Virus record (IMG/VR): IMGVR_UViG_3300046694_000314
Span: 1 to 22,902 of that record
DNA length: 22,902 nt
From: a virus
Direction: 5' to 3' (one strand)
In this document: piece by piece, positions 16,919-21,331 of the stretch
Numbering within the stretch: position 1 is the first letter of the stretch
Layout: each line of letters opens with the position of its first letter
Program-made: the position numbers and the translations under genes
Notes under the pieces: generated by a model
What the model was told of the DNA's origin: nothing
The model's database searches: none
Seen by the model: only the letters and a program-made list of their open reading frames with translations

Positions 16919-16948
16919 AATATAAGCCTGCTTATCGTTATCCGTCAA
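16919..16948 (-). promoter_or_regulatory. Leftward early promoter PL
   Basis: On the minus strand the -35 box TTGACG (16948-16943) and -10 box TATATT (16924-16919) each match the sigma70 consensus at 5 of 6 positions, 18 bp apart. Perfect repressor palindromes overlap both ends, so the repressor should block it in the lysogen. Start expected near 16912. Confidence 0.85.
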
Positions 16949-16961
16949 TAAGCAGGCTTAT
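16922..16961. promoter_or_regulatory. Left operator OL: two perfect repressor palindromes
   Basis: ATAAGC-CT-GCTTAT at 16922-16935 and ATAAGC-AG-GCTTAT at 16948-16961, centres 26 bp apart. The same 14-bp palindrome occurs as OR1 at 21100-21113. They overlap the -10 and -35 boxes of PL. Confidence 0.87.
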
Positions 16962-17007: not shown

Positions 17008-17259
17008 TCAGGCTTCGCAGTATTCTCGCCAGCCTATCTTGAAGGAGTCTTCATCGACCCTCTGCACCCGGATGCCTTGAGTGCTGGCGATCTCATTCAT
17101 CAGCCTCCACCAGTCTGACTTGCCCTCATTGGGCAGCCTGGAGACGGTAACGAACTGCACCTTCTGAACATTGGGATCGCTGATGATCTCTTTGACGCGG
17201 TGGCCGATCTGCTCGTAGGAGCGGGGCTTGGTCTGGGTGAACTCGGGCTGCTGAAGCAT
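17008..17259 (-). CDS. DUF1654 family protein, 83 aa, SOS-controlled
   Basis: The sequence RSYEQIGHRVKEIISDPNVQ, then KVQFVTVSRLPNEGKSDWWR and LMNEIASTQGIRVQRVDEDS, fits the DUF1654 family, which I know mainly from Pseudomonas genomes and phages. Function is unknown; the RLP...DW motif followed by a small beta-unit is its signature. GGAGG lies 6 nt before the ATG. A consensus LexA box (17281-17296) lies 22 bp upstream and a terminator follows directly, so this is a one-gene SOS-inducible unit. Induction by DNA damage alongside prophage induction suggests a role in the switch or in damage tolerance; that is inference. Confidence 0.82.
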   Translation of the reverse strand: MLQQPEFTQTKPRSYEQIGHRVKEIISDPNVQKVQFVTVSRLPNEGKSDWWRLMNEIASTQGIRVQRVDEDSFKIGWREYCEA

Positions 17260-17280: not shown

Positions 17281-17296
17281 CTGTATGCATATACAG
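17281..17296. promoter_or_regulatory. LexA (SOS) box
   Basis: CTGTATGCATATACAG matches the LexA pattern CTGT-N8-ACAG with an alternating TA-rich centre, close to CTG(TA)5CAG. It lies 22 bp upstream of the DUF1654 start, in promoter position. Confidence 0.82.
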
Positions 17297-17998: not shown

Positions 17999-18025
17999 CG
18001 AAAAGCCCGGCGCTGGGCCGGGCTT
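17999..18025 (-). terminator. Terminator closing the HipA-like/DUF3037 unit
   Basis: Minus-strand 8-bp stem AAGCCCGG/CCGGGCTT with a 7-nt loop, then TTTTCG. It lies 13 bp beyond the stop of gene 18038-18913. Confidence 0.82.
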
Positions 18026-18037
18026 GCGGGATGCTTG

Positions 18038-18913
18038 CTAAGCCACTCTTGGAGTCCACCACTCGATGGTTTTGAGCGCCAACTCATCGGTGGAGGGCGC
18101 TTTAATCACCGACAAGCCTGAGCGCTCAACACGTTCAAGTTGCTTTTCGATAACGTCAGAGACGCGCTTATATTCCAACTGGTCCATTCCACTTTTGTCA
18201 TTCGGAACCAGGATAGACAACGCCCCAATCCGATCGCTGTTGTTGGACACAAGGGTGAGGTCTGAGAATGCTTGAAGGATATTTTTCTCAGCGACCACTG
18301 GGCTTTTATACCAAACGGAGACTACTGATCCGACTGCCGTCGTGCTAAGCAAAGGAACATCCACATCAATAGTGCCGTTTTTGAGATGCAGACGATAGCG
18401 TTCATCTTTGATGATCGCGGAAGCGCTCAGGGCCATTCTCTGCCGCATGATTTGGAAGAGACCGTCGCGGAGTTTCGGAGTCGAGGTGTATCTGAATGCT
18501 TCGCTCCGTGACGCGTCCTTCGGTCTACCTAGCGTCACTACATCAGAAAAAAATTCCTCAACAACGGCCTCAGGCGAATCTCCGGAGGCATACAGGCTCG
18601 GCCCGAGTCGTACATTACTGCTGATAATGTCGGGCAGCCTGTCCTTGCTGGAGAAGATGTATTCTTCGATGTCATGCAGGTAGTGGGTGAGACTTTTCAG
18701 ATTTACCCGACCGCCATACAGGCATTTGACTCGGTCAAAGGTGTCGAGCATGCGGACATCGACTCTTCCAGCGTGGGAAAACATGACGCCCACATTCAAA
18801 TATTCGTCCGCATCCTGATCTAGGCACATCTGGATAGGTCGCCATTGACCAGTCACGCGCACCGGCACAGCTGCTGACGCAACCTTTTGCTTAAGCCTAG
18901 CGAGGATAGTCAT
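18038..18913 (-). CDS. DUF3037-type partner of the HipA-like kinase, 291 aa
   Basis: Residues 24-60 (WRPIQMCLDQDADEYLNVGV, then MFSHAGRVDVRMLDTF) match the start of DUF3037 proteins, whose hallmark is a 'D/E-x-LNVGV' strand after the first beta-strand. The rest is mixed alpha/beta, with IMRQRMALSASAIIKDERYR and a C-terminal VIEKQLERVERSGLSVI. No signal peptide. The start overlaps the kinase stop in ATGA, so the two are co-translated in fixed order. DUF3037 genes commonly pair with HipA_2-type kinases, as I recall; the biochemical role of DUF3037 is not established. It may be the kinase's substrate adaptor, antidote or regulator. Confidence 0.72.
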   Translation of the reverse strand: MTILARLKQKVASAAVPVRVTGQWRPIQMCLDQDADEYLNVGVMFSHAGRVDVRMLDTFDRVKCLYGGRVNLKSLTHYLHDIEEYIFSSKDRLPDIISSNVRLGPSLYASGDSPEAVVEEFFSDVVTLGRPKDASRSEAFRYTSTPKLRDGLFQIMRQRMALSASAIIKDERYRLHLKNGTIDVDVPLLSTTAVGSVVSVWYKSPVVAEKNILQAFSDLTLVSNNSDRIGALSILVPNDKSGMDQLEYKRVSDVIEKQLERVERSGLSVIKAPSTDELALKTIEWWTPRVA

Positions 18914-19785
18914 ATCATCAAACCTACTTTAGCGCTGTACTGTCCAGGATCCAGCCGTGAAGCTAAGAATTCTAGCACCTGTTCGACCTCTGTAGGATCC
19001 ATGAATTCCGATAAAACAGAACCGGCTTGACTACGTCCACTTGCTTGCCAGGCTACTGAAAAAGACTTGTAGGCTAAATTTCGAGCCGAGCGGATCGGAC
19101 TTCTTGCGCTCCAGGAGGGAACGAAGCTTTCGATTAAGTCGACTAGGGCATTCCGAAGCGGAAGGGGGCTTGACTCGAGCGCATCTGGCGACCAAGTAGG
19201 CGTTCTGAACAGTCGTCCATGATCTATCAACAGCAGGTTAGCCGAAGGAGAGCCCAGCAGATTACCCAAGTGACGATCGCTGTTCTCGACCCACTCATCG
19301 AACGAAACTATCCTGGGTGAAGCCTTGTTGGAGGAGAGGTCGATGGCGATTCTTGCCCTGTTTCTTTGCTGCACCAGATCAGGAGCATCCGACGGGCATT
19401 CGACCATAAGGGCATCAAGCCGCATGTCTTCAGAAAACCAAGCGAGATATTCATCCTGCGATTTCCCAGTCGCGTCTTGAGTTGCCAGTTTTGCAAGAAC
19501 CGATTTCGGCAACTGCTCAGCGGTAAGGACGATTGCCCCGGCGCGACTGGCCACGTCGAAGCCGCAGGTCCGGGCAAGACAATAGCCTAGCGCTTCACTG
19601 ACAACTGATCGGTTTTCTGCACTGCTACCATTTGGAAGCCCTATGAGGGTGGCAAATGGCTTGATGTAGCATCTAGCAGCAACCTCGCCAACCTGGATTT
19701 TTCCCCGGAACAATACGCTTTCACCAGCCTGGGCAGCATCCCGCAAGGTGCCCAGAAACGCGTCACTTCCTAATATTTCCAGCAT
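18910..19785 (-). CDS. HipA-like serine/threonine kinase (HipA_2 type), 291 aa
   Basis: ATG 19785 (AGGGA 6 nt upstream) is preferred over an upstream GTG. Kinase features: ARCYIKPF with ATP-contacting Lys42; helix SEALGYCLA with Glu65; catalytic loop ENSDRHLGNLL with Asp170 and Asn175; metal-binding LIDHGRLF with Asp188. This is the HipA/PI3K-like layout. It lacks the N-terminal HipA domain and is shorter than classical HipA (about 440 aa). HipA kinases phosphorylate translation factors such as GltX and cause growth arrest; the target here is unknown. No HipB-like antitoxin is adjacent, the co-translated neighbour being DUF3037. It sits between repressor and PL, so it should be expressed in the lysogen. 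Confidence 0.83.
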   Translation of the reverse strand: MLEILGSDAFLGTLRDAAQAGESVLFRGKIQVGEVAARCYIKPFATLIGLPNGSSAENRSVVSEALGYCLARTCGFDVASRAGAIVLTAEQLPKSVLAKLATQDATGKSQDEYLAWFSEDMRLDALMVECPSDAPDLVQQRNRARIAIDLSSNKASPRIVSFDEWVENSDRHLGNLLGSPSANLLLIDHGRLFRTPTWSPDALESSPLPLRNALVDLIESFVPSWSARSPIRSARNLAYKSFSVAWQASGRSQAGSVLSEFMDPTEVEQVLEFLASRLDPGQYSAKVGLMI

Positions 19786-19859
19786 GGTCAATCCCTGAAT
19801 ATTGATACACACAGCCCAAACCTTTCAATCCAGTTCCGACCTCGGCCACTTGGCGCGCG

Positions 19860-20327
19860 TCACTGCCCCATAATCTCCCGATACCGCTTCTGATATTCCT
19901 CGTAGGGCACATCTTGTTGCATTAGCTGCTGAACGCGGGCTTCGCGGGATTCTGCGGAGGCGGGCTGCAGTGGTGAGGGGTACGTAGAGGCGGATCCTAG
20001 TATCGCCCTAGCCCCTGCGTCAGGGTTACCCAGGCACTGGTACTTCACGATCATTTCCGAGGAAGCGCACCCGAAGTAGTTGCTTGACGTGCATCTGGTA
20101 GTCCTGCTGCCGAATTTCGCTGAATCCTGATAGCCCCATGCTACGCAGCGGTCCTTGGCGATCGTTAGCGCTTTATTGAAGTCCGATTCGCCGAACCGCT
20201 CGTTACCCTGGAACGCAACTGTAATCATGCCGTCAGCCCTACTTCCGTCGAGCGCGAATATGTCGTTGGGTTTCTGGGCACAGCCGGTGATTGTCAGGGC
20301 TGCTAAGAAGGTCCAAATAGCGCGCAT
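19860..20327 (-). CDS. YecR-like lipoprotein, 155 aa
   Basis: The N-terminus MRAIWTFLAALTITGCAQ is a lipoprotein signal with lipobox Cys16. After it, FALDGSRADGMITVAFQG, then ALTIAKDRCVAWGY, match the YecR-like pattern (DGSR-x-DG-x-(I/V), then a Cys followed by W-G-Y). Further Cys pairs (TRCTSSNYFGC) suggest disulfides. It would be exported and anchored in the envelope. AGGGA lies 6 nt upstream. It directly follows the repressor gene, 53 bp away, and no terminator separates it from the kinase, so a repressor-lipoprotein-kinase transcript is possible. Surface lipoproteins at this place often alter phage adsorption or injection; not shown here. Confidence 0.78.
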   Translation of the reverse strand: MRAIWTFLAALTITGCAQKPNDIFALDGSRADGMITVAFQGNERFGESDFNKALTIAKDRCVAWGYQDSAKFGSRTTRCTSSNYFGCASSEMIVKYQCLGNPDAGARAILGSASTYPSPLQPASAESREARVQQLMQQDVPYEEYQKRYREIMGQ

Positions 20328-20380
20328 TTCAATTCCCTATTTTGATTTGGTTGGCTTTCTGCCGAGGCTTGAGCTTGTCG

Positions 20381-21040
20381 TCAGAGCTTCATCAACGCCC
20401 TGACGACTACACCGATAATCCGGCAATCGTCTTCACACGTTTCCATCGGGTAAGCAGGGTTGAGGGGCTTGAGGAAACGTCGGCCACCGTCGTCTACCAA
20501 TTTCTTGAACGTAGCCTTGTCGCTGTTCGATAGCTTTGCAATGACCAGCTTGCCGGAGTAGGCGTCGGCCTCAGTGTCCACTAGGATCAGGCTGCCTTCA
20601 GGGACGCTCTGACCGACCGGCGATGTCATCGAGTCGCCTTTGACCTCAAGCCAAAACGCCGGCCCTTTAGAATTGTATTCAGACATCTCGTAGTGGTCAG
20701 AAAACCCAGGAGGGTAGGGCTCAACCGCTTCCGCCCAGCTACCCGCGGCTACCCATGAAATCACAGGGTAGCGATACATCATGTTCGGCTGAACAGCCAT
20801 CGCAACATTCGATGCCTCTGGCTCCGCCCCAGGAACCATCTCCCCAATTCCCTCAGAGAGCCAGATCGCACTGACGCCGCATAGATGAGCGAATTTCGCC
20901 AGGTGCGCGCTTTGAAGGTTTTTCCCGGTCTCCAATTGGGAAATAACGGGCTGCTCGACGCCTGCCTTTAAAGCAAGCGCTTTCTGCGTGAGGTTCCCGT
21001 GCTTACGGGCGAGCTTCATTCGGTCTGCAAGTGTGTTCAT
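20381..21040 (-). CDS. cI: LexA-like (S24) prophage repressor, CI type, 219 aa
   Basis: The N-terminal HTH (about 16-40: NLTQKALALKAGVEQPVISQ) binds operators. The C-terminal S24 domain mediates dimerisation and RecA-stimulated self-cleavage, with cleavage site Ala99-Gly100 (WVAAGSW), Ser137 (KGDSM) and Lys179 (TFKKL). ATG 21040 is preferred over an in-frame ATG at 21094, because the PRM -10 box (21050-21055) puts the transcript start only 2-3 nt before 21040 and there is no Shine-Dalgarno: a near-leaderless message like lambda cI. It diverges from cro across three operators. It represses PR and PL and yields after DNA damage. Confidence 0.92.
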   Translation of the reverse strand: MNTLADRMKLARKHGNLTQKALALKAGVEQPVISQLETGKNLQSAHLAKFAHLCGVSAIWLSEGIGEMVPGAEPEASNVAMAVQPNMMYRYPVISWVAAGSWAEAVEPYPPGFSDHYEMSEYNSKGPAFWLEVKGDSMTSPVGQSVPEGSLILVDTEADAYSGKLVIAKLSNSDKATFKKLVDDGGRRFLKPLNPAYPMETCEDDCRIIGVVVRALMKL

Positions 21041-21049
21041 GAACACAAA

Positions 21050-21077
21050 TTTATAAGTTCGCTTATTCGCTTGCAAA
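21050..21077 (-). promoter_or_regulatory. Repressor promoter PRM
   Basis: On the minus strand TATAAA (21055-21050) is a good -10 box with TTTGCA (21077-21072) 16 bp upstream as a poor -35, typical of an activator-dependent PRM. OR3 overlaps the -10 box and spacer, allowing negative autoregulation. The transcript would start 2-3 nt before the repressor ATG. Confidence 0.62.
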
Positions 21078-21113
21078 TAAGTTTCCTTCTTCATAGGATA
21101 TAAGCGTGCTTAT
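21053..21113. promoter_or_regulatory. Right operator OR: three repressor sites
   Basis: OR1 at 21100-21113 is a perfect ATAAGC-GT-GCTTAT. OR3 at 21053-21066 (ATAAGT-TC-GCTTAT) has one mismatch. A weaker OR2 at 21077-21090 matches 9 of 12 positions. Centres are 23 and 24 bp apart, supporting the weak middle site. OR3 covers PRM; OR1 covers the PR start. Confidence 0.82.
21071..21099 (+). promoter_or_regulatory. Rightward early promoter PR
   Basis: TTGCAA (21071-21076) and TAGGAT (21094-21099) are 17 bp apart, 4 of 6 matches each or better. Start near 21106 inside OR1, giving a leader of about 20 nt with AGGAGGG before the cro ATG. Confidence 0.65.
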
Positions 21114-21127
21114 CAGGAGGGCTCGTC

Positions 21128-21331
21128 ATGACCCCTATCGAACGGCTCGTTGATTTCTTCGGCGGGCAAACCAAAACAGCGATTGCGCTGGGCTGCACGC
21201 AGGCAGCCGTTTCGTACTGGGTCTCAGGAATTCACTCGATGAGCGCCCAAAAAGCTTTCAAGGCGGAGGAACTCACCGGTGGCGCAATCACCGCCCGTGA
21301 GCTTTGTTCGCCTCAACGTACTGCCGCCTAA
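21128..21331 (+). CDS. cro: Cro/YdaS-like regulator, 67 aa
   Basis: The protein MTPIERLVDFFGGQTKTAIA, LGCTQAAVSYWVSGIHSMSA, then EELTGGAITARELC, is a single HTH domain of the YdaS/Cro type. Its recognition helix is around TQAAVSYW, followed by the typical 'MSAxxAxxxExLTGGxITAREL' C-terminus. AGGAGGG precedes the ATG. As first gene of PR, it should bind OR and favour lytic growth by repressing PRM. Length suits the family. It shares a 4-bp tail overlap with the convergent gene 21328-21534. Confidence 0.88.
   Translation: MTPIERLVDFFGGQTKTAIALGCTQAAVSYWVSGIHSMSAQKAFKAEELTGGAITARELCSPQRTAA

Follow-up and report, generated by a model that had tools for sequence, protein, structure and literature searches.

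Introduction

HipA kinases arrest growth through the phosphorylation of translation factors, and phage lambda carries its exclusion genes rexA and rexB in the interval between the repressor gene and PL. The closest described systems to the locus studied here join a kinase to a DUF3037 protein. The name HipAD for one of them, also known as DS-6 and represented in PADLOC by PDC-M66, reportedly goes back to Brenes and Laub in 2025. In HipAD a HipA-related kinase gene is followed by an overlapping gene for a DUF3037 protein, the kinase residues are kept and the setting is a prophage. A catalytic mutant of DS-6/HipAD loses phage defence, and DS-6B has been reported as a DUF3037 plus DUF1829 protein with predicted DNA contact (PMC13092281). 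In Retron-Sda1 the kinase and DUF3037 genes lie in an operon that also holds an HTH gene; the kinase is required for defence, deletion of the DUF3037 gene is toxic and the HTH gene is dispensable for defence (PMC12548924). The RexAB systems of lambda and of P. putida (RexABpp; PMC12894663) lie downstream of CI and are co-oriented with the repressor, and consist of a DNA-binding sensor and a membrane effector.

Here we describe a kinase and DUF3037-type pair in a 22.9-kb virus record of 22,902 nucleotides, the whole of which is referred to as the window. The host of this dormant virus is probably Pseudomonas. The comparison with DS-6 and Retron-Sda1 was made through their published descriptions and the PADLOC models.

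Organisation of the locus

The open reading frames on the minus strand run, in order, from an S24/HTH repressor through a YecR-like lipoprotein and a HipA-like kinase to a DUF3037-type partner. The features are as follows.

16919-16961, minus strand: OL/PL, two operators over a sigma70-like promoter, leftward
18003-18026, minus strand: intrinsic terminator, end of the cassette
18038-18913, minus strand: DUF3037-type partner, putative antitoxin/sensor, 291 aa
18910-19785, minus strand: HipA-like kinase, HipAD/PDC-M66 ‘A’ subunit, 291 aa, ATG start
18026-20379, no strand assigned: exchangeable cargo slot (blastn of the flanks against L170, L172 and L174-L177)
19860-20327, minus strand: YecR-like lipoprotein, separate cargo (PF13992, E 4.6e-13, which passes the Pfam cut-off)
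20381-21040, minus strand: CI-type repressor, HTH plus Peptidase_S24 (ORF opens at 21094, ATG 21040 likely start)
21053-21113, no strand assigned: operator region OR, ATAAGCnnGCTTAT sites
21128-21331, plus strand: divergent cro-like gene (ORF; the divergent gene in L174 shares 90% identity with it)

The end of the kinase gene and the start of the partner gene share a 4-nt ATGA overlap (18910-18913), and the partner gene is followed by a terminator with a stem of −18.3 kcal/mol (z −2.8) and a short U tail. The gene order, single strand, overlap and closing terminator of the original prediction thus agree with the ORF map and the stem calculation. No terminator-like site was found on the minus strand from cI to the end of the pair; given this and the shared strand, the pair would be co-transcribed with cI in the lysogen. 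Both genes of the pair are retained under purifying selection, as judged by dN/dS values of 0.014-0.035 against the relatives L014 and L015. INPHARED held no close DNA match to 17-22.9 kb of the window.

The repressor was recognised by Pfam (Peptidase_S24, E 1e-26; HTH_3, E 2.4e-9) and by a PHROG repressor family (E 7e-53). Its ORF spans 20381-21094, with an operator inside the first 18 codons (21041-21094), so the start is likely ATG 21040. The operator palindrome ATAAGCnnGCTTAT occurs at 21100, 21053 (one mismatch), 16922 and 16948, four matches in the window against 0.44 expected. Two sites fall in the stretch that separates cI from the divergent cro-like gene; the other two lie over a leftward promoter-like site, the best found (TTGACG-18-TATATT, 16948-16919), which is overlapped by the operators at 16922-16935 and 16948-16961. 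This overlap places PL past the partner gene at a distance of about 1.1 kb, a stretch that contains three small ORFs. Four ATAAGCnnGCTTAT sites occur in an identical arrangement in L174, the relative with the 90% identical cro. The operator positions in the two sequences fix OR and OL/PL and put the cassette in the interval that holds rexAB in lambda; the location between repressor and PL, on the repressor strand, that had been proposed for these genes is therefore upheld by the operators at 21053-21113 and 16922-16961.

The likeness to RexAB is one of position, since a kinase stands in place of a DNA-binding sensor and membrane effector and there is no sequence relation; the window proteins gave no match to Pfam RexA or RexB at E up to 1.

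One of the three small ORFs encodes a DUF1654 protein (17008-17259, minus strand) with a LexA-type box, CTGTATGCATATACAG, just upstream at 17281-17296. The box is the sole perfect CTGT-N8-ACAG site in the window, a loose pattern that may occur by chance.

An exchangeable cargo slot

Relatives chosen by their repressor (71-82% identical) have DNA that is 80-90% identical to the window on one or both flanks, with different genes in between. Compared with L170, the replaced stretch is 18026-20379, which on this alignment of flanks is an exchangeable cargo slot. Its contents in the relatives include a Panacea-domain protein with two companions, lipoproteins, a pair of 302 and 143 aa, and other ORFs. 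With its boundary drawn this precisely, the slot could be searched across phages for further exclusion systems. The slot of the near relative L170 (L170:6035-7815) holds the SocA/Panacea-domain protein (E 1.7e-24) and its two companions, possibly a toxin-antitoxin cassette. That of L174 (L174:5767-7066) encodes the 302-aa protein and a hydrophobic 143-aa protein, RexA/RexB-like in size and order; neither matched Pfam RexA or RexB.

The lipoprotein had originally been placed in the same module as the kinase and its partner. A single three-gene exclusion system of kinase, partner and lipoprotein, like a larger rexAB, would fit their shared strand, the short gaps and the one exchanged slot, and secreted or lipoprotein ORFs precede the kinase in some distant clusters of the family. 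The YecR-like lipoprotein, however, was absent from all other pair-bearing loci examined, and its only other copy lies in L181, behind another S24 repressor and adjoining a different gene, on a 5-kb contig that lacks a kinase; in other loci the proteins encoded ahead of the kinase bear no recognisable relation to the YecR-like protein. We therefore rejected the lipoprotein as a third component and regard it as separate cargo, which makes the three-gene reading very unlikely. Next after the lipoprotein gene in L181 (3768-4811) comes a small ORF resembling, by eye, a HigB/RelE-type toxin. The unrelated secreted or lipoprotein ORFs in the repressor-kinase gap of distant clusters are found at L113:3272-3619, L118:3046-3468 and L119:3055-3462.

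The kinase

ATG 19785 is most likely the start of the kinase gene, judging by a CAGGGA 6 nt upstream and by the closest relatives, which start there; the alternative GTG 19812 was rejected. Numbering from this ATG reproduces the residues of the original prediction, and Lys42, Asp170, Asn175 and Asp188 are all present as it had stated. An alignment of 43 kinase clusters shows K42, E64, D163, D170, R171, N175, I187 and D188 to be invariant, and the clusters that share the invariant Lys42, Asp170, Asn175 and Asp188 reach down to about 17-20% identity. These catalytic residues support a kinase that looks active.

The match of the window kinase to Pfam HipA_2 (E 7e-5) is below Pfam's cut-off. Its predicted structure is poor (pLDDT 60), and in a fold search with this model every top match was a kinase, none of them significant. 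Against sequences of solved structures the kinases matched the PI3-kinase catalytic loop (E 0.008).

The active-site layout is that of HipBA, and growth arrest by phosphorylation would be expected of both. HipBA differs in its partner: in the window a DUF3037 protein takes the place of HipB, and its gene comes behind that of the kinase instead of ahead of it. No HipB-type HTH antitoxin was found beside the kinase; the nearest HTH gene is the S24 repressor gene, with the lipoprotein gene between.

The DUF3037-type partner

The window partner likewise scores below Pfam's cut-off for DUF3037 (E 0.05), so the names HipA-like and DUF3037 rest on the family for both proteins. DUF3037 was matched by 13 of the 17 close partners and PADLOC PDC-M66B by all 17.

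In a predicted structure of the partner (pLDDT 76), residues 139-291 align with ERCC1, XPF/Mus81, CdiA-CT and Can2, all of which we take to have a PD-(D/E)XK-like fold, with Z scores of 9.3 and below (VIA-align); the best alignment, to the ERCC1 central domain (Z 9.3 over 112 residues), is modestly above background for such searches. The C-terminal half is thus predicted to adopt a PD-(D/E)XK/ERCC4-like nuclease fold lacking a conserved active site: visual inspection showed no conservation of the acidic residues and lysine that such an active site should have. On this account the partner may be a pseudo-nuclease that binds nucleic acid. Foldseek found no significant match to the partner in the PDB, a search against sequences of solved structures gave nothing beyond noise, and among viral structures (BFVD) the model matched two unnamed proteins and, third, a DUF1828 protein.

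The DUF3037 plus DUF1829 layout of DS-6B would agree with a window partner made of a DUF3037-type N-terminal part and, in its C-terminal half, the predicted nuclease-like fold. The window proteins gave no match to Pfam DUF1829.

Relation to HipAD

The window proteins score weakly against PADLOC PDC-M66A (E 0.05) and PDC-M66B (E 0.022). For the same two models the best scores are 4.9e-4 and 6.9e-6 among members of the clade, and 3.5e-7 and 2.8e-7 in the wider family. PDC-M66B is the only PADLOC model matched by the close partners, and PDC-M66A, matched by 10 of the 17 close kinases, is the family most often found among them. With window scores of E 0.02-0.05 we read the pair as a divergent member of PDC-M66; in terms of sequence, it would be a divergent branch of HipAD. 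The pair had been put forward as an unknown candidate system, a view that gives way to that of a divergent member of the described HipAD/PDC-M66 family. The branch differs from HipAD in its sequence, so divergent that the window proteins fall below the Pfam cut-offs, and in its constant place within the immunity operon, behind the repressor. The Retron-Sda1 module differs in another way: it belongs to the operon of a bacterial retron, with neither phage repressor nor operators.

Distribution and co-evolution of the pair

We scanned viral contigs, genomes, phages and plasmids and clustered the kinases at 80% identity. In 139 of 144 kinase units, and in 42 of 43 clusters, the next gene after the kinase is the partner; some contigs are represented more than once, so the clusters and not the units provide the safe count. 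The pair is therefore co-conserved in other genomes, as had been anticipated. Within one Pseudomonas set of about 399 genomes it is rare, the close clade being found in 3 and the wide kinase profile in 6.

Distances between kinases and distances between their partners are strongly correlated (r 0.92, 0 of 2000 permutations; r 0.74 within the core clade), whereas kinase distances show no correlation with those of the repressor N-terminus (r 0.00). The pair thus moves as a unit, with repressors being swapped around it.

A repressor candidate lies upstream of the pair on the same strand in 35 of the 43 clusters (raw count). Matches among 36 repressor candidates were to a PHROG repressor family in at least 28 (assigned by count only, hence a lower bound), to Pfam HTH_3 in 26 and to Peptidase_S24 in 12. 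The exceptions to this adjacency are other phage positions and 3.5-kb enterobacterial plasmids.

A segment shared by the repressors

The repressors of many relatives have no S24 domain, and instead join one of several unrelated HTH halves to a common C-terminal segment of about 70 residues, which is present in 19 of the 36 repressors. In the core clade the reading frames of repressor and kinase share 8-23 nt. The conserved end of the segment overlaps the kinase start region, so that constraint on the protein and constraint on translation are inseparable there. All 11 viral loci retrieved with the segment carry the pair.

These features are what would be expected of a lysogeny-control module, in which the main target of kinase and partner is the repressor or switch of the phage that carries them, not an intruder: a repressor candidate beside the pair in most clusters, often without the S24 self-cleavage domain, bearing the shared segment and encoded by a gene that overlaps the kinase gene. 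The clade of the window, however, has an ordinary S24 repressor with no such segment, some Pseudomonas genomes have the core of the segment but lack the pair, and the pair itself is found at other phage positions and on 3.5-kb plasmids. Furthermore, the HTH gene is dispensable for defence in Retron-Sda1 (PMC12548924). We consider lysogeny control unlikely as the main role.

The segment suggests, from its sequence distribution, that repressor and pair are functionally linked; its occurrence without the pair and its lack in the clade of the window keep this link at the level of a suggestion. A stronger form is a three-gene immunity operon with the kinase pair wired to the repressor, where the DNA-binding halves are swapped and the C-terminal segment docks or is phosphorylated. 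This is rather unlikely; if true, a single switch would serve to sense infection, arrest growth and induce the prophage, and in about half of the lineages it would be independent of S24 self-cleavage.

The proteins with the segment core and no adjoining kinase pair are HTH proteins of about 140-150 aa in Pseudomonas genomes (L055-L063, L065-L067 and L073), and we rejected the idea that the segment is specific to the pair.

Proposed function

By analogy with its relatives, the pair at 18038-19785 is probably a divergent kinase toxin-antitoxin defence module of the HipAD type (DS-6/PDC-M66), carried as lysogenic cargo between CI and PL. Since dozens of unrelated viruses keep the pair at this position, its most likely use by the dormant virus is against rival viruses. 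The anti-phage or toxin-antitoxin role originally predicted gains support from relatives studied by experiment, where defence needs the kinase and deletion of the partner is toxic (PMC12548924, PMC13092281).

The overlap resembles that of toxin-antitoxin genes, and the toxic partner deletion in a relative (PMC12548924) would also suit a selfish or stabilising pair that serves prophage maintenance or dormancy with no real anti-phage role. The relatives nevertheless defend against phages in a kinase-dependent manner, and the other cargo of the slot includes non-addictive lipoproteins; a purely selfish pair is quite improbable.

As a defence module the pair might work as follows. In the lysogen it would be transcribed together with cI, and the partner, made by translational coupling, would keep the kinase inactive, as its relatives suggest. 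Infection by a competing phage would disturb the partner, perhaps through nucleic acid binding by the nuclease-like domain. Once freed, the kinase would phosphorylate some factor of the host, in the manner of HipA, and growth would stop before the intruder matures.

A known defence system carried as prophage cargo is ordinary in kind; what is unusual here is its divergence and its tight link to the immunity repressor. New in this study are the divergent clade, the fixed link to the immunity operon, the non-S24 repressors with a shared C-terminal segment and the predicted nuclease-like fold of the partner. Defence of this type, described in E. coli and in a strain with a retron, would have a wide branch in phages that is mostly unannotated and whose members stay next to immunity repressors, as rexAB does in lambda. 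This raises the question of whether such kinases act on the phage's own repressor too.

Among the plasmids, L035 (NZ_AP027872.1, 3489 bp) and similar enterobacterial plasmids of 3.4-6.4 kb have a HipA-family kinase and a DUF3037-like partner as their main cargo.
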